Virus record (IMG/VR): IMGVR_UViG_3300022851_000057
Coordinates: 1-34,203 of that record
Strand: one strand, 5' to 3'
Length of the DNA stretch: 34,203 bases
From: a virus
A program made the translations under genes and the position numbers. Positions 18,528 to 33,370 of the stretch are shown here, one piece after another. Below the pieces are notes generated by a model that saw only the letters and a program-made list of their open reading frames with translations, was not told where the DNA came from and ran no database searches. Within the stretch, counting starts at the first letter, position 1. The number at the start of each line of letters is the position of its first letter.

Positions 18528-19178
18528 TCAGCCCTCATAATCAACCATCCAGTTTTTGTGGAAGTTGAAAACATCCTCGTTCTGCTCAATAATATATTGC
18601 TCAAACCTGGCGTTGTCAGACAAATTGCCGGAACCCTCAAACACAAAGTGCTTCCCGCACTTAGTTTTACAGCAGAATACTTTTGCGTGAAGGCAGCCTG
18701 TTTTTACTTTGAAGGTATCAGACTGAAGAGCTGTTATCGTCTCAAACCATCGCTCATAACGTTTGTTTTCGCGAAAGAAATTGCTTAGAAGAACAAGTGA
18801 ATCTACGCCAGCGTCATGCAGCCTTTCTTTAATCCAATTTACTGCACGTTGATTCATCCGGTAAACGCAGATGTAAACCTCGTCCATTTCGTACCTTTCA
18901 GAAATCAGATCCAGCACGACGATTGCGTTTATTGCGTTGTTAGTGATAATTCTTGTTTGATAGCCTTCGGCGAGAGAATCAAAGTCGATATTCAGTAACT
19001 TGCTTTTTTGTGTGATGATTTTGATATATTTCTGCTGAAGCCGGTATTCTTTGCCAAGTACCCCCCCCATTTTCTTTTGATGATCGTATGTAGATATTGG
19101 CATATCGTCAAGACCAATCACTTGAAAATCAAGATCAAATCCTGCATCTGCAAGATCGAAACTATCAGCGCGTAGCAT
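18528..19178 (-). CDS. Phospholipase D-like domain protein (216 aa)
   Basis: The C-terminal half carries an HKD-like motif: H-A-K-V-F at 164-168 and, 14 residues later, G-S-G-N-L-S-D-N-A-R-F-E (182-193), as in PLD-superfamily nucleases and phosphodiesterases. Only one motif is present, so an active enzyme would need a dimer. The N-terminal 60 residues hold L-D-D-M-P-I-S-T-Y-D-H-Q-K-K-M-G-G-V-L-G. The ATG at 19178 has no ribosome site; a 26-codon upstream frame overlaps it, suggesting re-initiation. The open frame continues upstream of the ATG without a usual start codon. An 8-base G run lies in codons 37-40. A DNA-processing role near packaging genes is a guess. Confidence 0.7.
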   Translation of the reverse strand: MLRADSFDLADAGFDLDFQVIGLDDMPISTYDHQKKMGGVLGKEYRLQQKYIKIITQKSKLLNIDFDSLAEGYQTRIITNNAINAIVVLDLISERYEMDEVYICVYRMNQRAVNWIKERLHDAGVDSLVLLSNFFRENKRYERWFETITALQSDTFKVKTGCLHAKVFCCKTKCGKHFVFEGSGNLSDNARFEQYIIEQNEDVFNFHKNWMVDYEG

Positions 19179-19245: not shown

Positions 19246-19303
19246 TTGCACCGCAAGTGATTGCCCGGAACATCCGGGTTATACCCTATTCTAACACAAA
19301 AAA
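19246..19303 (-). promoter_or_regulatory. Leader cassette A: extended -10 promoter and hairpins
   Basis: On the minus strand, directly after the terminator T-run comes TGTTAGAAT, an extended -10 element (TGn then TAGAAT). It is followed by GGGTATAACCC (small hairpin) and CCCGGATGTTCCGGG (6-base stem, plus-strand 19264-19278), which compete for the same CCC. The segment then ends in CTTGCGGTGCAA and ATGATG. It matches cassette B at 20875-20930 almost base for base. No good -35 is seen. Confidence 0.6.
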
Positions 19304-19326
19304 AACCCGCAACCAGCTCGCGGGTT
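19297..19326 (-). terminator. Rho-independent terminator after the glycosyltransferase-like gene
   Basis: Stem AACCCGC (19304-19310) / GCGGGTT (19320-19326), 9-base loop, followed on the minus strand by a run of eight T. On the plus strand it is followed by TTTT only, so it acts mainly on leftward transcription. The T-run is shared with the promoter cassette beyond it. Confidence 0.85.
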
Positions 19327-20874: not shown

Positions 20875-20930
20875 TGCACCGCAAGATTAGGCCGGAACAT
20901 CCGGGTTATACCTTATTGTAACACAAAAAA
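20875..20930 (-). promoter_or_regulatory. Leader cassette B: extended -10 promoter and hairpin
   Basis: This is a near copy of cassette A: TGTTACAAT (extended -10), GGTATAACC, CCGGATGTTCCGG (20892-20904, 5-base stem), then CTTGCGGTGCA before the ParB-like ATGATG. Differences from A fall mostly outside the hairpin core. Confidence 0.6.
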
Positions 20931-20952
20931 AACCCGCCAAGGAGAGGCGGGT
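20924..20952 (-). terminator. Rho-independent terminator upstream of cassette B
   Basis: Stem ACCCGCC (20932-20938) / GGCGGGT (20946-20952), 7-base loop, followed on the minus strand by eight T. It ends the transcript of the small HTH genes at 20972-21350. Confidence 0.85.
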
Positions 20953-20971: not shown

Positions 20972-21145
20972 TCATTCTACGCTTTGTTTTTCTTTCTGTC
21001 TAGCGCAGCCGAGCAGTACAACCCTGAACAGGGCCGGTTCTTCTGTGTGCCAGCGCCTGAGCGTCTGTGGCGGCTTGCCGGTGATCTCTGATACCTCAGC
21101 AAGGCTTTTAAGCCCTGCTGATTTTGCTGCGGCTGATGCGCTCAT
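20972..21145 (-). CDS. Small helix-turn-helix phage protein (57 aa)
   Basis: The product contains a clear HTH: G-L-K-S-L-A-E-V-S-E-I-T-G-K-P-P-Q-T-L-R-R-W (11-32), then E-E-P-A-L-F-R-V-V-L-L-G-C, a C-terminal pattern seen in small phage DNA-binding proteins that follow or control adjacent genes. The start overlaps the upstream stop (ATGA). It ends just before a strong terminator. It is probably a transcription regulator or an adaptor binding DNA; the exact target is not visible. Confidence 0.7.
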   Translation of the reverse strand: MSASAAAKSAGLKSLAEVSEITGKPPQTLRRWHTEEPALFRVVLLGCARQKEKQSVE

Positions 21146-21306
21146 ACGTTGCCCGCTTGAATAAAGCCCAGGTGCTTGGACACCGCTACTTTTCGGATTG
21201 ACCTCTTCCGGGAGGCGAAAAGCGACTGCGCATCAAGGGGATTATCCCCTATCAACGCGTGTTGCCTGCCTTTGTTGCCCTGTGCGGGCTTATTCATCTT
21301 CGGCAT
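21142..21306 (-). CDS. Small basic protein upstream of the HTH protein (54 aa)
   Basis: The product (MPKMNKPAQGNKGRQHAL... ending HLGFIQAGNV) is basic, with an internal K-R-S-I-R-K-V-A-V-S-K segment that could bind nucleic acid. A GAG ribosome site lies about seven bases before the ATG. It overlaps the HTH gene by four bases and the 18-codon frame upstream by 13. I do not recognise the family. Confidence 0.55.
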   Translation of the reverse strand: MPKMNKPAQGNKGRQHALIGDNPLDAQSLFASRKRSIRKVAVSKHLGFIQAGNV

Positions 21307-21763: not shown

Positions 21764-21772
21764 GGTCTTGTT

Positions 21773-21879
21773 CCCTAGTTGTCGGTCCGCTTTATTGCTG
21801 ACCATGTATCTATAATAGCACACTATGGACCAAAGTAAAGCCTTTTTAACAAATAATTTGCTATATTTTCATTTATTTT
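21773..21879 (-). promoter_or_regulatory. 107-base promoter repeat, copy 1
   Basis: This copy is on the minus strand. From 5' to 3' it has an AT-rich start (AAAATAAATGAAAATATAG), -35 TTTACT, a 16-base spacer, an extended -10 TGCTATTAT, an ATG six bases later opening MVSNKADRQLG, and ACTAGGG as ribosome site. It differs at one to three positions from copies 2 (32192-32298) and 3 (32622-32728), without indels. Confidence 0.85.
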
Positions 21880-21972
21880 CATCATTTTTGTAAAAATCGG
21901 AAATACTTATACGACATGCCGCGCATTGTCGTGCAGTTGCATACTTGAGCAATCCTTCGTCGATTTGCACAG

Positions 21973-24844: not shown

Positions 24845-25204
24845 TTAAATCCCTTTTCTGTTTATTATGTTACCCAGCGCACACAGTAGGCCATAAATTT
24901 ATAAAAGTAAAAATATGAAAACAATAGTTGGAGCTACTAAAGTTTTACTAGGGTTTTAATCTTCTAAGTTATTGATTTATATATACTTATTAGATACTCT
25001 AGTAACTATATACTATAGTCAGACACTTATTTTAAATCGTAAGGATTCCTTCCTAGTGTATCTAGGAGATCAACTATAATTACTAAAGTTTTGCTATCGT
25101 GAGGATTGGCGCGGCTTATACCGTAGTAGAAACTCTAGTTTCCTCTACTACGGTTTACTAAGGTTTAACGAAAAAAGCGTTACAAGTCAATACTATACCA
25201 CGTT
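24845..25204. other. AT-rich non-coding region, candidate replication origin
   Basis: No gene is visible in these 360 bases, which are much more AT-rich than the rest. They contain repeated ACTAAAGTTTT-type elements (at about 24936, 25082 and a variant ACTAAGGTTTA near 25157), TATA-rich stretches, and a strong inverted repeat at 25120-25154. The region lies immediately after the prim-pol/helicase gene, where origins of small phages are often placed. Origin function is inferred. Confidence 0.5.
25120..25154. repeat. 11-base-arm inverted repeat in the AT-rich region
   Basis: ACCGTAGTAGA (25120-25130) and TCTACTACGGT (25144-25154) are perfect inverted arms with a 13-base centre that itself contains the near-palindrome GAAACTCTAGTTTC. 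A cruciform or a long hairpin could form. It lies 50 bases after the primase stop, so it could also work as a transcription stop for the minus strand, although no T-run follows. Confidence 0.75.
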
Positions 25205-27493
25205 TTACTGTTTTGCTAGAAATAATTTCTTTGATACTGGCCCGCGCGCTCCTTGATGTTCAACCTCGATCAGATGCCCGCTTTTGACCAACCGCGCCAC
25301 AGCCTCGCATACCTGCTCTTTTTTATAAACTCGGCACTGATTGCAGATAACCCCGATGGTCTCACCATGCTCCTGAGTCACGAGCGACAAAACACGCGCC
25401 AGCAGAGCATTGCCTTTATCCGGCGCTGAATTGCTGTAAGCAAGTTTCAACTTGCCCTCAATATCACGTCTAACCATTCTGTACGACCACTGGACGTGCT
25501 CCAGCGTCCTCAACCCGGACGGAATAGCCAGCACTGCTGATACCTTTGCAACCAGCTCATAGCCGCGCCGGGGGATCGCTTGCATACCGGTGGCTTCAGC
25601 CTGTTCCGCTGCCATCGTGTGAAAACGCTCTGAAACCTCGTCCAGTGCATTTACCGCCTCGTCCGTTGTCTGTATATCTGTTTTGTCGCCAACGCGCTCC
25701 ACGCGCTCTAAGGACTGCTGAAAATAGCCAGGCGCATATAAGTTGAAAAGCGTGTATTTAATCTGGTCAGGAACTCCCGTCCTGCCTCGCTTGGCGCGTG
25801 GTTTAATTCTAGGGTTCTTTTCCAGCTCTTGGAAGATTAGCGCGCGGCCCATAAACCCGTTAGCGACAAGCTCGAAATCCATCAGGTTGTTAAATTTCTC
25901 AGGCGTAGTCAGGCCAAAAATTGACAGGAACGGCGCTTCGATGCCCATGTCAATCGTTGCCAGTGACTGGTCTACACGCGCAATACGGGCTGCAAACTTT
26001 CCGCTTTTGTCCTCGTTTTCATCAACTGCTTTCTGCAACCTGTTGCGCTCTGCAAGCAGCCCCTGGCGCACTTCTTCTTTGAGATCACCAGTGACTGCAA
26101 CAAAGCTATTCGATTTGGAATAGATGTTCATCAACGTGCCGATGACGCCTTCAAGATAAATAGCCCCGCCTCTTTTTTGAGCGCTGGTGATCTTGGCAAA
26201 GTGCTCGCCCAGCTCGTCTATTGAGTAGTATGCCGCCTGGTGCCTTATAAGATTGCGGTAAATTTCTTGCTCTGACTTAATCCCGCCGACCAGCGCACCT
26301 GCTATGCCTGCGGCTTTTATCAGCTCGTTGTGTGCTTGGAGAATAGCCTCTTTTCCGGTGCTGGAATCAGCTACGCCAAAACAGAACAGATTAAACGCAG
26401 AATCATCCAGCGGATCTCGATAGCGCATCCCGGCGCAGTTGCTCACGACCATCAACGCCGCGGCTACTGCAAGGGTTTCACGCGGAAAAAGAGAACGAGA
26501 GTTAATCCACTCTGTGATCTCCCCGACAAACCCTGGTGGCCTCAGCAGGTCAATACCAGCAGTGTCCAGCACATCTTCAGCGGGGAGATAGTCAAAAACA
26601 GGCGCATCACTAAAAGTGACAGGCACACACCACCCGGCCTGTTGTGCGTAGTGCATGAGCGTGGCGACTGTGACCGGGTTGCTGGCCTTGCCGAAGCTGT
26701 GCCAGCGGTTCTCAATACGCGAACCGTTGCCGCTTTTAGCGTATCGTGGAGACTGTGCAGCCCATTCCTGCCATAAAGCGAGGCCGTCTAAGCTGCTATT
26801 TGTGACATGATGGATGCCCATGCCAACTCTAATATACACTTCGTGACCGGTATCTGCGTCGTTAGGCACAGCAAGAATAAGACCGCGCAAATCATCATTA
26901 GACAGATCCAGTGACTGTCCGTTGTACTCAACACGCTGCATCTGTGGTCGATTCAGCAATGCCAAAAGCCCATCAGGTACATCATCAATATCAGCCACAG
27001 AACCGAGCGCAACAACGTACTTGTTGCCGCTTTTGTGCAGCGAACCCGGGCCAACCACAAAACCAGAGCTCTTAAAATCAATGCCTTTATAAGCAGGCAA
27101 GTGCTGCATCAGCGCCAAGCCGGAAGGCACTTTAAAATACAAATGCATCGACCCGTTGCCGGAGCCAGTCTTGACGATCAGCCCAGCTCCGGCGATCTCC
27201 GGCACAGCTTCCAGTAGTTTTTCGTAAGATGCAACCCCACCGTTGCGGGCATCCACGTCAACAACCAACAGCCCTTCTACTAGCACGCCATAACCCGTGG
27301 AGAGTTGTCCGGTGAGCTGCATAACCTCTATCTGTTCGTCTGACCAGTCAGGGCTGTGCTGCCAGTTACTAGCCACTGGATGTTTATAGTGCGCCTCACA
27401 TGCGGCATGAGCGCACGCACAGTGCCCAGCCTGATCGACGCCATGTAGTCCGAAAATCTTGTAGCCCTCTGCCATAAAGTCGCTGTAAATCAT
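25205..27493 (-). CDS. Prim-pol primase / DUF3987-type helicase replication protein (762 aa)
   Basis: The main replication enzyme. Residues about 5-190 form an archaeo-eukaryotic type prim-pol domain: catalytic V-V-D-V-D-A-R-N-G-G (77-86), then G-S-G-N-G-S-M-H-L-Y-F near 108-118 and G-I-D-F-K-S-S-G-F-V-V-G-P-G-S-L-H near 136-152. Residues about 200-275 look like a PriCT-2 helper domain (S-N-D-D-L-R-G-L-I...R-Y-A-K-S...N-R-W-H-S-F). The rest is a DUF3987-like ATPase with P-loop-type D-S-S-T-G-K-E near 380 and Y-Y-S-I-D-E-L-G-E-H as probable Walker B, ending in a small winged-helix-like domain. The start overlaps the stop of the HTH gene (ATGA). It can both prime and unwind. Confidence 0.88.
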   Translation of the reverse strand: MIYSDFMAEGYKIFGLHGVDQAGHCACAHAACEAHYKHPVASNWQHSPDWSDEQIEVMQLTGQLSTGYGVLVEGLLVVDVDARNGGVASYEKLLEAVPEIAGAGLIVKTGSGNGSMHLYFKVPSGLALMQHLPAYKGIDFKSSGFVVGPGSLHKSGNKYVVALGSVADIDDVPDGLLALLNRPQMQRVEYNGQSLDLSNDDLRGLILAVPNDADTGHEVYIRVGMGIHHVTNSSLDGLALWQEWAAQSPRYAKSGNGSRIENRWHSFGKASNPVTVATLMHYAQQAGWCVPVTFSDAPVFDYLPAEDVLDTAGIDLLRPPGFVGEITEWINSRSLFPRETLAVAAALMVVSNCAGMRYRDPLDDSAFNLFCFGVADSSTGKEAILQAHNELIKAAGIAGALVGGIKSEQEIYRNLIRHQAAYYSIDELGEHFAKITSAQKRGGAIYLEGVIGTLMNIYSKSNSFVAVTGDLKEEVRQGLLAERNRLQKAVDENEDKSGKFAARIARVDQSLATIDMGIEAPFLSIFGLTTPEKFNNLMDFELVANGFMGRALIFQELEKNPRIKPRAKRGRTGVPDQIKYTLFNLYAPGYFQQSLERVERVGDKTDIQTTDEAVNALDEVSERFHTMAAEQAEATGMQAIPRRGYELVAKVSAVLAIPSGLRTLEHVQWSYRMVRRDIEGKLKLAYSNSAPDKGNALLARVLSLVTQEHGETIGVICNQCRVYKKEQVCEAVARLVKSGHLIEVEHQGARGPVSKKLFLAKQ

Positions 27494-27666
27494 CGCTTGG
27501 CCGCCTCAAAATATGCACTTAGACGCACTATTGTGTCGTAGTTGGGCATATGTTTAGGGTTATCCCTGATTGTCCTGAGCGTGTTATAGTGCAACCCCGT
27601 GGCATCTGCCACGACCTGCAATCTCCTGTCTTTTAGTGCGCGTCTGATATATAGCAGTGTGTGCAT
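27490..27666 (-). CDS. Cro-like helix-turn-helix protein before the primase (58 aa)
   Basis: A strong GGAGGA ribosome site precedes the ATG. The product (MHTLLYIRRALKDRRLQVVA...) has a compact HTH: V-V-A-D-A-T-G-L-H-Y-N-T-L-R-T-I-R (18-34) in a five-helix Cro/CI-like arrangement. Its stop overlaps the primase start, so it is co-expressed with replication. It faces a divergent operon across an intergenic palindrome, which is the likely operator. It probably represses or balances the divergent promoters. Confidence 0.75.
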   Translation of the reverse strand: MHTLLYIRRALKDRRLQVVADATGLHYNTLRTIRDNPKHMPNYDTIVRLSAYFEAAKR

Positions 27667-27798
27667 CTTGTTTTCCTCCGTGTTAAATAATTACTTTTTA
27701 CTGTTTACATCCTACGTTACATTGTTTAGGATGTATACCGTGGAGTGAGAAAATAACCGGCAGATAGCTCCCACTGCCAACCCAATGAGGTAATAATA
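27667..27798. promoter_or_regulatory. Divergent control region with 9-base-arm operator
   Basis: The region lies between the HTH-primase operon (minus) and the recombination operon (plus). TACATCCTA (27706-27714) and TAGGATGTA (27727-27735) form a perfect inverted repeat with half-site centres 21 bases apart, two helical turns. A plus-strand promoter can be read with TTTACA as -35, a 17-base spacer and TAGGAT as -10, so the operator would overlap both elements. GAGG before 27799 is the ribosome site. Confidence 0.7.
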
Positions 27799-28563
27799 AT
27801 GAGTACATTAGAAACAATAGAAAAACCCAAAGACAGGTCGCCGATAGTCACGATATGTGGTGACTCAGGTCTTGGCAAGACCACCCTTGCGGCAACCTTC
27901 CCCCGTCCTATCGTTATCCGCGCAGAAGATGGCCTGCAAGCGATCCCTGCTGACCAGCGTCCAGACGCATTCCCTTTGATCCAAAAAGTGGATGACCTGT
28001 GGGCGCAAATAATGAGTTTATTGCAAGAAAAGCACGATTACAAAACCGTCGTGATCGACAGTGTTACCGCCCTGGAGCGCCTGTTTATTGCGCACATTAT
28101 CGAAAGTGACCCCAGAAAGCCCGCTTCGCTGAAACAAGCCCTTGGCGGGTACGGTGCCGGAGTTGATGCAGTAGGATCTCTGCATCAGCGTGTGCGCAAA
28201 GCGTGCGGATTGCTGAATTTGCGGCTTGGCATGAACATTGTTTTTGTGGCTCACGCCGAAACAGAGACAATCGAGCTGCCGGACACGGATGCCTATACCC
28301 GCTACAGTTTGCGTCTCGGTAAAAAGTCCGTTGCGCCCTATGTTGATGACAGTGACGTGGTGGCATTCCTGAAATTGGAAACATTTACCAAAGGCGATGG
28401 CGAACGCAAAAAAGCCATCAGCGACGGCACGCGGGTGATGATTTGTCATGCCAGTGCGTCAAACGTGAGTAAAAACAGGTACGGGATCACGGAACCGCTG
28501 ATAGTCGAACAAGGCAAAAACCCGCTCGTAAACTACATCACATCACTAGCAACAGGAGCATAA
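27799..28563 (+). CDS. Sak4-like RecA-fold ATPase / single-strand annealing-type protein (254 aa)
   Basis: Walker A G-D-S-G-L-G-K-T-T (21-29), Walker B T-V-V-I-D-S-V-T-A-L-E near 83-93, then I-V-F-V-A-H near 150 (sensor strand) and D-D-S-D-V-V-A-F-L near 177: the phage nucleotide-binding AAA_24/Sak4 pattern. The family promotes annealing or strand exchange with a phage SSB-like partner. It is the first gene of the plus-strand recombination operon, followed by the DUF669 protein, the YqaJ nuclease and the helicase, exactly the partners expected. Confidence 0.85.
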   Translation: MSTLETIEKPKDRSPIVTICGDSGLGKTTLAATFPRPIVIRAEDGLQAIPADQRPDAFPLIQKVDDLWAQIMSLLQEKHDYKTVVIDSVTALERLFIAHIIESDPRKPASLKQALGGYGAGVDAVGSLHQRVRKACGLLNLRLGMNIVFVAHAETETIELPDTDAYTRYSLRLGKKSVAPYVDDSDVVAFLKLETFTKGDGERKKAISDGTRVMICHASASNVSKNRYGITEPLIVEQGKNPLVNYITSLATGA

Positions 28564-28567
28564 AATA

Positions 28568-29125
28568 ATGTCATTTTGGAATCTCAGCGATAATACAAAA
28601 CCGGAAGGCAACACGTTTGACATGGGCGGCGGAGGCATTATCCCTGCTAATACCAGCGTGCTGGCGGCTTGCGACGAAGCAAAGCTGGACAACTATGAGG
28701 GCGAAGATTTCATAAATCTGCGCTGGACTGTGTTGGCTCCGGCTGAATATGCGAACCGAAAGGTGTTTCAAAAGATCCGCGTATTTGATACCAGCCCGCA
28801 GAAAGCTGATAAAGCCAAACGAATGCTCACGGCCATTGATGCAAATGCCGGTGGCAAGCTGATGGCAAGCGGTGCCGAACCAACAGATGCAATGTTAACT
28901 AAATGCTTGGTCAACAAGCCGATGGTTCTTAAACTACAAGTTTGGGGAATTAACGAAAAGTCCGGAAATTGGGTTGCCGCCGTTGCGCCGCGTGCTGCGG
29001 GTCAGGTAGCGCCGCGGCGTGCTGCGGGTGAGGTAGCGCCGCCGCGTGCTGCGGGTCAGGTAGCGCCGCCGCGTGCTGCTGCTCCTAAAAAACTTGTTGC
29101 TGATGATGATGATATTCCCTTTTAG
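28568..29125 (+). CDS. DUF669-like single-strand-binding protein with SSB-type acidic tail (185 aa)
   Basis: Residues 1-135 match the DUF669 pattern (M-S-F-W-N-L-S-D, then A-K-L-D-N-Y-E-G-E-D-F-I-N-L-R-W-T-V near 36-53 and N-R-K-V-F-Q-K-I-R-V near 62). A tandem repeat V-A-P-P-R-A-A-G-Q follows (about 139-172). The protein ends in D-D-D-D-I-P-F, identical in type to the C-terminal tip of bacterial SSB that recruits DNA-repair partners. This supports a phage SSB role beside the Sak4-like ATPase. An AGGAG site lies before the ATG. Confidence 0.85.
   Translation: MSFWNLSDNTKPEGNTFDMGGGGIIPANTSVLAACDEAKLDNYEGEDFINLRWTVLAPAEYANRKVFQKIRVFDTSPQKADKAKRMLTAIDANAGGKLMASGAEPTDAMLTKCLVNKPMVLKLQVWGINEKSGNWVAAVAPRAAGQVAPRRAAGEVAPPRAAGQVAPPRAAAPKKLVADDDDIPF
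28982..29083 (+). repeat. 27-base coding minisatellite in the DUF669 gene
   Basis: Four units: 24 bases (28982-29005), 27 (29006-29032), 27 (29033-29059) and a 24-base last unit (29060-29083). They encode VAPRAAGQ, VAPRRAAGE, VAPPRAAGQ and VAPPRAAA. It is a flexible Pro/Ala/Arg linker between the DNA-binding core and the acidic tip, as in SSB proteins. Unit number may vary between isolates. Confidence 0.9.
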
Positions 29126-31808: not shown

Positions 31809-32202
31809 AGTTTACGGCGATCTCAAATACCGTGCTCCATGCCCGCCTGAGTCTGCTGAACAGATTACTTTTTTTGCTCGGCTTCGAAGGCAGTACCCTG
31901 ATTCATGGGGAGCACTGGCTATCCACCCACGTAATGAGGGTAAACGCTCGCATTACCAGACTGCTAAGCAGAAGGCTGAAGGCATGACCCCCGGCGCTGC
32001 GGATATTGTGATCCCTGGCCGGATTGCGTTCGTCTGTGAGATAAAACGCCGGAACCACACAAAGAGCACATGGCAACCCGGACAACTTGAGTATCTGCTT
32101 GCCGCACAACAGGCCGGTGCTTTCTCCTGCGTGGCACTTGGGTGTGATGAGGCATGGCGGGCTTTTCAGCGGTGGCTTGGTGAGCTTAATGAAAATAAAT
32201 GA
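31786..32202 (+). CDS. VRR-NUC type nuclease, Holliday-junction-resolvase-like (138 aa)
   Basis: The ATG at 31786 (MKFHPDIKVYGDLKYRAP) follows AGGGCG and overlaps the helicase end; an ATG at 31765 is in frame but deeper in the helicase gene. E-Q-I-T-F-F-A-R-L-R near 24, G-A-A-D-I-V-I-P (about 69-76) and F-V-C-E-I-K-R (about 81-87) are the PD-(D/E)xK core. The family resolves branched DNA. The last codons and stop lie inside promoter repeat copy 2. Confidence 0.85.
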   Translation: MKFHPDIKVYGDLKYRAPCPPESAEQITFFARLRRQYPDSWGALAIHPRNEGKRSHYQTAKQKAEGMTPGAADIVIPGRIAFVCEIKRRNHTKSTWQPGQLEYLLAAQQAGAFSCVALGCDEAWRAFQRWLGELNENK

Positions 32203-32298
32203 AAATATAGCAAATTATTTGTTAAAAAGGCTTTACTCTGGTCCATAGTGTGCTATTATAGATACATGGTCAGCAATAAAGCGGGCCGACAACTAGGG
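32192..32298 (+). promoter_or_regulatory. 107-base promoter repeat, copy 2
   Basis: -35 TTTACT at 32232-32237, 16-base spacer, extended -10 TGC-TATTAT (32252-32259). ATAGTGTGCTAT (32245-32256) is a 12-base palindrome over the -10, a likely operator. An ATG six bases after the -10 (32266) starts MVSNKAGRQLG, 21 codons in this copy, and may be translated without a leader. The copy ends with ACTAGGG, the ribosome site for 32309. Confidence 0.85.
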
Positions 32299-32590: not shown

Positions 32591-32621
32591 CCAAAAGGAA
32601 ACCAAAAAAATGCAATTAGTA

Positions 32622-32728
32622 AAAATAAATGAAAATATAGCAAATTATTTGTTAAAAAGGCTTTACTTTGGTCCATAGTGTGCTATTATAGCTACATGGT
32701 CAGCAATAAAGCGGGCCGACAACTAGGG
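32622..32728 (+). promoter_or_regulatory. 107-base promoter repeat, copy 3
   Basis: Same length as copies 1 and 2, with a few substitutions (for example GCTAC for GATAC after the -10). It ends in ACTAGGG, the ribosome site for 32738. In this copy the MVSNKAGRQLG frame (ATG 32696) runs in frame through the 32738 frame to the stop at 32792. Confidence 0.85.
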
Positions 32729-32737
32729 GTTAAGATT

Positions 32738-32794
32738 ATGAAATACTACAGCGCAGAATCAGCACACGGTTCAAGAACGAGCAGTAGTGTCTAG
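32738..32794 (+). CDS. Very small peptide under promoter repeat copy 3 (17 aa)
   Basis: ATG at 32738 follows AGGGG by nine bases and encodes MKYYSAESAHGSRTSSSV to within one residue of its end at 32794. In frame with the leader ATG at 32696 it would be 32 residues. It may be the truncated remains of a gene driven by this copy, or a real micropeptide. A T-rich stretch (TAGTTTTTATT) follows without an obvious stem. Confidence 0.35.
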   Translation: MKYYSAESAHGSRTSSSV

Positions 32795-32824: not shown

Positions 32825-32831
32825 AATGCAA

Positions 32832-33248
32832 ATGAAAATCGACCAAAATAAACTACACGATGACTTGATACCACTGCGCGAAGCTGCCGCCGCCGCTGGT
32901 TGCACTGAGTCTGAATTATTAACTATGGCTGCTAACGATGAGATATTGCTACATGTGGCGATTGACCAATTTACAGCTAATCTGGTAGCAGTGCCGAGCC
33001 ACGAAAAACCCATGTCAGCCAGTCGCAGATGTAGCGGCGAAAAAGTGCCACTCTTGCAAGATTACGCAAAAGCATTAAAGAGAAATGGCAAAGTCTCGGT
33101 AAAGCACTATGAAGCAAACGTAAATGGAAAAATCTCACAATGGGATTGGCATTATTGGGTGCTGGAAGAGCCTCAAATCGCAACCATTGAGCACGTCTAC
33201 ATTGCTCGTGGGCATGTTACCACCAAGACCCCAGCAAGGCCGCGGTAA
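32832..33248 (+). CDS. Hypothetical protein with possible N-terminal HTH (138 aa)
   Basis: The ATG at 32832 (MKIDQNKLHDDLIPLREAAA) lies seven bases after AGGGG; an ATG at 32826 is too close to it. The N-terminal 45 residues (L-I-P-L-R-E-A-A-A-A-A-G-C-T-E-S-E-L-L-T-M-A-A-N-D) look like a MerR/AlpA-like HTH without the wing, a pattern seen in phage proteins of unknown role. The C-terminal half has W-D-W-H-Y-W-V-L near 105. DNA binding is inferred. Confidence 0.65.
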   Translation: MKIDQNKLHDDLIPLREAAAAAGCTESELLTMAANDEILLHVAIDQFTANLVAVPSHEKPMSASRRCSGEKVPLLQDYAKALKRNGKVSVKHYEANVNGKISQWDWHYWVLEEPQIATIEHVYIARGHVTTKTPARPR

Positions 33249-33289: not shown

Positions 33290-33370
33290 ATGAGAACAGA
33301 ATTTGTAGCAGCTTTACTGGTATTGGCGCTGGCCTTCGTGGTCGGCATGTTGATAGGTGCCGGGCTATGA
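33290..33370 (+). CDS. Single-span membrane micropeptide (26 aa)
   Basis: GAGG precedes the ATG by about six bases. MRTEFVAALLVLALAFVVG and a short Gly/Leu end make one transmembrane helix with three polar N-terminal residues. The stop overlaps the start of the beta-helix gene (ATGA), so the two are translationally coupled. It may anchor or signal for the beta-helix protein, or act in lysis or exclusion; nothing decides this. Confidence 0.65.
   Translation: MRTEFVAALLVLALAFVVGMLIGAGL

Follow-up and report, generated by a model that had tools for sequence, protein, structure and literature searches.

The DNA analysed here, referred to as the window, comprises the entire 34,203 bases of an IMG/VR virus record. 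Three copies of a 107-nt repeat, hereafter the cassette, are present in it, at 21773..21879 on the minus strand (copy A) and at 32192..32298 and 32622..32728 on the plus strand (copies B and C), all of them pointing toward the start codon of a different gene. The copies are about 98% identical over 107/107 nt and their core contains no indels, in agreement with what had been claimed in the original prediction; the differences among the aligned copies are limited to three internal positions and the very first bases. When 18-nt pieces of the cassette were searched with three mismatches allowed, three matches were obtained, corresponding only to A, B and C (0.00-0.02 are expected from shuffles), and there is no fourth copy in the 34,203-bp contig. 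The predicted exact length of 107 bases holds for the indel-free core, which is the only stretch common to the three copies, but not beyond it: A and B share 112 nt, a homology that spans 21771-21882 in A and begins exactly at an ATG at 32189 in B, and a weaker similarity, interrupted by a 1-nt indel, continues past the core as far as the start codons and includes the ribosome site. The spacers between the cassette end and the downstream ATG are of 9, 10 and 9 nt for A, B and C, respectively.

The gene after copy A encodes an acidic protein of 112 aa (P0001; 21425..21763, minus strand) and is followed on the same strand by two more small ORFs (54 aa, and 57 aa, MerR-like; 20972..21306) and by a good intrinsic terminator with a 7 bp stem and a T-run (20932..20952), the predicted end of the A transcript. 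Copy B precedes the gene of a basic 93-aa protein (P0002; 32309..32590, plus strand), and the final codons of the VRR-NUC nuclease gene, with its stop codon, also lie in this copy. As the homologues of this nuclease terminate near the same place, at about residues 138-142, B begins where the gene ends and leaves it unbroken. Directly after C lies an ORF of 18 aa (MKYYSAESAHGSRTSSSV; 32738..32794, plus strand), and 31 nt past it begins a gene of 140 codons (32826..33248, plus strand; 138 aa from 32832) with a good ribosome site of its own. A promoter in C would transcribe both, and the 140-codon gene is likely its real target.

The codon usage of the genes after A and B is like that of the real genes of this phage: P0001 scores 0.27 and P0002 0.29 bits/codon, and the values of known genes and wrong frames are 0.21 and -0.24, respectively. 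The small gene expected behind each copy was found for A (112 residues) and B (93 residues), whereas the peptide behind C, noted as 17 residues, has 18 and is followed by the 140-codon gene. A single relative of P0002 was detected in viral contigs, a protein of contig L004 with 77% identity over 57 aa whose gene has no cassette ahead of it, and none was detected in bacterial genomes; P0002 is regarded as a conserved gene. The searches returned no relatives of P0001.

A sigma70-type promoter was predicted in each copy, at 21812..21839 (minus strand) in A, 32232..32259 (plus) in B and 32662..32689 (plus) in C. It consists of a TTTACT hexamer (21839-21834 in A), a 16-nt spacer and the extended -10 element TGTGCTATTAT (21822-21812, 32249-32259 and 32679-32689, respectively). 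This TTTACT-16-TATTAT arrangement matches 9/12 positions of the consensus, the -35 agreeing at only 4/6, and TGTG precedes the -10; the features of a sigma70 extended -10 promoter, namely hexamers at a spacing of 16-18 nt and TGN ahead of the -10, are thus present in A, B and C. On the sense strand of cassette shuffles (n=2000), any such site appeared in 14.5% and one with TG in just 0.85%. Sites of equal quality without TG are frequent by chance (16 found vs 14.4 expected). The contig as a whole contains five instances of the pattern TGTGNTANNAT (0.9 expected), one in each cassette and one in each copy of a second repeat described below. The Shine-Dalgarno pairing in the cassettes was of -5.7 to -5.9 kcal/mol, which is moderate for this genome. 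Both the -35 with its extended -10 and the ribosome site had been anticipated for each copy, and both were recovered, the latter at moderate strength. The three copies are too alike for the bases under selection to be told from them.

The predicted leader of B extends from the +1, at an ATG, to the AGGG Shine-Dalgarno sequence (32295-32298), covering 32266..32298 on the plus strand, and the same leader is predicted at 32696-32728 (plus) in C and 21805-21773 (minus) in A. The transcription start, an early timing of expression and the strength of this promoter should be taken as predictions. A leaderless ATG (MVSNKAGRQLG) had been proposed at this point. Such a frame is present (reading MVSNKADRQLG in A), with its ATG at the predicted +1, but it stays in phase with the gene that follows only in A and C and is out of frame in B. 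Because of the latter, a leaderless or fused MVSNKA reading as a general N-terminal extension was rejected. The leader transcript, AUGGUC...GRCC, could also act as an RNA element, its small 5' hairpin stabilising the mRNA or controlling translation. The hairpin is predicted alike in the three copies, and the G-to-A change in A preserves a pair (U-G to U-A); however, the leader folds no better than shuffles (z -0.43, 0.24 and -1.55) and no Rfam family was matched, which makes this explanation quite improbable.

The upstream half of the cassette contains a small ORF in all three copies, MKINENIANYLLKRLYSGP in B (32189..32248, plus strand), MMKINENIANYLLKRLYFGP in A (21885-21823, minus) and MQLVKINENIANYLLKRLYFGP in C (32610-32678, plus). 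The repeat might then be mainly coding, as a duplicated peptide gene of 19-22 codons (KINENIANYLLKRLY(F/S)GP): an in-frame ATG is present in 3/3 copies and the frame is free of stops up to a shared TAG despite different flanks, the homology of A and B begins exactly at the ATG of the small ORF, and in C a fair Shine-Dalgarno site (-5.6 kcal/mol) precedes it. We regard a peptide gene as unlikely. Of the three substitutions, one changes an amino acid (F to S), no convincing relative of the peptide was found in related loci, and a peptide gene leaves unexplained the conservation through the promoter up to the ribosome site of the next gene.

The presence of the cassette elsewhere was assayed by several searches. 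Exact-core scans with two different cores revealed no relative of it in viral contigs, an exact-core scan of bacterial genomes did not contain it, and BLAST gave no relative in phages and plasmids. Short BLAST matches were attributed to A/T-rich chance similarity, and a 22-nt match in records G010 and G011 was set aside, as it lies inside an apparent terminase small-subunit gene. Relatives of the phage were gathered by terminase (60) and by the primase or the 93-aa gene (three contigs), and the cassette was present in none of those that were searched whole. With no relative of its sequence in the collections searched, the cassette is therefore without conservation across phages.

Near-identical copies at different places and on both strands, with relatives that have no counterpart, are also what would be expected from a small mobile or selfish repeat of the MITE type that happens to carry a promoter. 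Such an element is very improbable here. Terminal inverted repeats were not found in the cassette, and common flanks are seen only at the start-codon side. Moreover, A, B and C have the same orientation and distance with respect to the start codon, their homology ends at the ribosome site, and copies are absent from the plasmids, phages, genomes and other viral contigs searched.

In contrast to the sequence, the architecture of the cassette recurs. Dispersed non-coding repeats were surveyed in 25 records, several of them incomplete, and then inspected. Duplicated cassettes that are analogous and unrelated in sequence were found in five metagenomic relatives and in the cultured Pseudomonas phage Torfinnsbu. 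Absence from all relatives, the outcome named beforehand as speaking against the cassette, was therefore observed for the exact sequence and not for the architecture. In G010, four copies of about 90 nt are all located directly upstream of genes for 62-76 aa; their promoter, TTTACA-17-TATAAT in three copies and with TATACT in the fourth, is conserved together with the start-proximal part, and their flanks have diverged. Two copies of 67 nt were found in G009, and two of about 93 nt in G008. G023 has six copies, all leading to an ATG and with GTTTACA conserved, and G013 has three of about 45 nt, in which AATAGTGTGTTATATT is a close counterpart of the ATAGTGTGCTATTAT of the window cassette. In G013, a tRNA-Ala gene is situated 7 nt downstream of one of the copies, a position more readily explained by a promoter than by an element that is coding or acts on translation alone; the third copy (179-223) has no clear gene downstream.

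Torfinnsbu, which shares the replication module with the window, carries a pair of 80 nt, 91% identical, before two unrelated small genes, one of which is found two genes after VRR-NUC, a location equivalent to that of B and C. No duplicated cassettes were found in two other cultured phages with the same replication module, Pseudoalteromonas H103 and Alcaligenes CASP1. When the cassettes of the relatives were aligned, the promoter elements were kept and the rest was drifting. A simple consensus scan revealed no promoter in G008 and in most of G023, so the promoter reading of the cassettes missed by it rests on the alignments. As cassette sequences differ from phage to phage, it is the architecture that recurs, and not the sequence. 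Repeats in G005, G012, G015, a large ORF of G023 and G026 were discarded because they lie within coding sequence. A 60-nt repeat pair is also present in G014, and in G006 (L009) the two contig halves are mutual inverted copies (70-86% identity) with ends forming a 98% inverted pair, perhaps an assembly artefact.

The putative control of the cassettes by a phage protein was analysed in the window and in the relatives. An operator-like palindrome had been proposed over the -10, ATAG-TGTG-CTAT (ATAGTGTGCTAT), which is part of the extended -10. This proposal did not stand, as the best inverted repeats in the cassette score 6, and scores of at least 6 were obtained in 311/500 shuffles. The window encodes three candidate HTH proteins, Cro/C1-like (58 aa), AlpA-like (63 aa) and MerR-like (57 aa), and the cassette core resembled the control region of its Cro-like gene (27660-27800) no better than shuffles did (p 0.96).

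In addition to being promoters, and not as an alternative to it, the three cassettes could double as operators that are jointly repressed or activated by one phage DNA-binding protein, a possibility that we regard as less likely than not. Its best case is G010, whose 34 kb contain exactly five instances of TGTAAAN3-5TTWACA, one in each of the four cassettes and one upstream of a gene (L077 11188-11388) for a protein similar to P22 Cro (E 1.6e-5, which falls short of the cut-off of Pfam itself). By comparison, this five-site motif is a good indication that G010 has a repressor regulon, and TGTAAAAAAACTTTACA is the candidate target sequence of its Cro-like protein. G009 carries TGTAAAATACTTTACA over its -10, Torfinnsbu carries GTCAATCMGGTTGAC within the promoter spacer, and the window cassette carries TGTTAAAAAGGCTTTACT over the -35, in a loosely similar arrangement. 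However, the TGTWAA..TTTAC pattern was picked after the data were seen, and neither an inverted repeat above chance nor a likeness to the control region of its own Cro-like gene was found for the window cassette. Therefore, the co-regulation originally proposed finds support in G010, with its motif common to four cassettes and the Cro-like gene promoter, but not in the window, where no operator was found and co-regulation is an extrapolation; by analogy, control of the window cassettes by one phage protein is plausible. A 43-nt pair of TAAACAYGGTGTTTRA-like motifs in opposite orientations was also seen in G024 (L098 11739-11781 and 13288-13330); one copy precedes a Cro-like gene, and the pair resembles repressor operators.

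We conclude, with a probability of about 78%, that the 107-nt repeat is a duplicated, self-contained promoter-RBS module that expresses accessory genes. The modular expression cassette before unrelated genes that had been predicted is supported by the promoter, ribosome site and orientation of 3/3 copies, the coding-like genes behind A and B, and the analogues in six phages. The module would be made up of an A/T-rich upstream part, a host-sigma70 promoter (-35-like TTTAC and extended -10), a 43-nt leader and a Shine-Dalgarno site. The phage would have duplicated it and set it immediately ahead of accessory genes, a position that would make the transcription of each gene independent of that of the genes around it. 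The unit begun at copy A would be a short one, covering the 112-aa, 54-aa and 57-aa ORFs up to the 20952-20932 terminator, and B and C, just past VRR-NUC at the end of the replication operon, would drive the 93-aa and the 18-aa/140-aa genes. Since B and C form direct repeats at a distance of 430 nt, homologous recombination could add or remove the B-P0002 unit, so that the module probably contributes to the shuffling of small genes besides their expression.

If this is right, duplicated promoter modules are a recurrent and phage-specific device to add and express orphan genes, with modules of unrelated sequence in the seven phages examined that have them (the window, five metagenomic relatives and Torfinnsbu). 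Accessory genes that are likely to act on the host could then be picked out by computation, through intergenic repeats that are dispersed and end at a start codon, and the regulons of phage repressors that are still uncharacterised, for example that of the G010 Cro-like protein, could be defined in the same way.

The role originally assigned to the downstream genes, host takeover or anti-defence, is putative. No convincing family match was obtained for them with Pfam, PHROGs or PADLOC, and matches below the Pfam cut-off, of P0001 to DUF7794 and of P0002 to influenza C NS2, were taken as chance. The single-sequence structure model of P0001 was discarded as worthless (pLDDT 41). The model of P0002 reached a mean pLDDT of 63, with about 75 for residues 5-60, and its best alignments were to RB69 Dmd (Z 5.3), phi29/PZA p56 (5.2-5.3), ribosomal S6 permutants (5.1) and T7 Gp2 (4.5); Foldseek against BFVD gave nothing below E 0.001. 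The low Z of P0002 against Dmd, p56 and Gp2 may reflect a common beta-beta-alpha-beta arrangement, and the likeness of the model to phage inhibitors is a weak lead rather than a result. It is doubtful that a broad, little-known group of tailed phages copies its own repressor-controlled promoter-RBS modules before new small host-takeover or anti-defence genes and that the 93-aa protein is a new inhibitor with the Dmd/p56/Gp2 fold. If it were so, a duplicated module would be a marker, readable from sequence alone, of unknown anti-defence genes in bacterial phages, as in archaeal viruses.

Several known systems resemble the cassette. The ESAS of cluster K mycobacteriophages are repeated promoter elements before small non-structural genes (PMC3203893; for Adephagia, PMC11373665), and the window cassette is like them multi-copy, intergenic and phage-specific in sequence, with a SigA/sigma70-like promoter before different small genes. 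In contrast, ESAS are of 46-47 bp, contain an imperfect inverted repeat of 15-17 bp and are usually accompanied by a 13-bp SAS, whereas the window unit has 107 nt and is nearly invariant, and no inverted repeat of the ESAS type was found in it, its best one being no better than those of shuffles.

The PeSL of T4-type phages, termed 'mobile regulatory cassettes' (Arbiol 2010 and Comeau 2014, as cited in PMC4503421), likewise consist of promoter modules that are duplicated in between accessory genes and may promote the shuffling of genes. As described in that citing source, PeSL are composites of an early promoter and a stem-loop terminator, whereas the 107-nt cassette has no terminator on its sense strand. 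Early promoters of T4-type phages (PMC1524935) also have TTTAC at the -35, an A-rich upstream region and a GT-rich -10 extension and precede novel ORFs and tRNA genes, but they are degenerate short motifs in dozens of copies, compared with the 107-nt duplicates with a ribosome site found here; nothing else found in the window phage suggests T4-likeness. Finally, with the anti-defence genes of archaeal viruses (PMC11065993), one near-identical, virus-specific early-promoter region precedes several unrelated small genes. These promoters are of the TATA/BRE type, and early expression and anti-defence have been demonstrated for some of the archaeal-virus genes; for the genes of the window both are putative. 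The cassette thus works like ESAS, PeSL and the archaeal shared sequences but is a member of none, lacking the inverted repeat of ESAS and the terminator of PeSL.

Nearer to PeSL, as these are described in PMC4503421, is a second repeat of the window, in which a terminator T-run is joined to an extended -10. It is 46 nt long and 96% identical between its two copies, both on the minus strand. Copy 1 (20892..20937, with TGTGTTACAAT) lies 18 nt before a ParB-like gene and copy 2 (19265..19310, with TGTGTTAGAAT) 87 nt before a PLD-like gene, and the leader GGTATAACCCGGATGTTCCGG follows TGTGTTAGAAT or TGTGTTACAAT. Torfinnsbu contains an analogous duplicated element of a terminator and TGTGCGTGGTAGAAT (L108 5100 and 10869).

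Other features of the window were also recorded. At 18528-19178 (minus strand), just upstream of the terminase genes, a 216-aa protein matching phrog_20533 is encoded, and its HxK...GSGNLS motif is suggestive of a phospholipase-D-like nuclease. The A/T-rich intergenic region at 24860-25205, which adjoins the primase gene, has many CTATAGT and CTAGTAAA motifs and is partly conserved in L005 (3100-3380) and L006; it is possibly a replication origin. Three 27-bp repeats at 28986-29079 lie in the C-terminal tail of an SSB-like gene (AAGQVAPPRAA repeats). Both contig ends (1-350 and 33345-34203) are occupied by an 18-bp tandem array that encodes a plus-strand ORF of GD(x)VTL hexapeptide repeats and is preceded by a membrane-like peptide of 26 aa (33290-33370). 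The contig probably ends inside one such array, and the genome may be circular or permuted.
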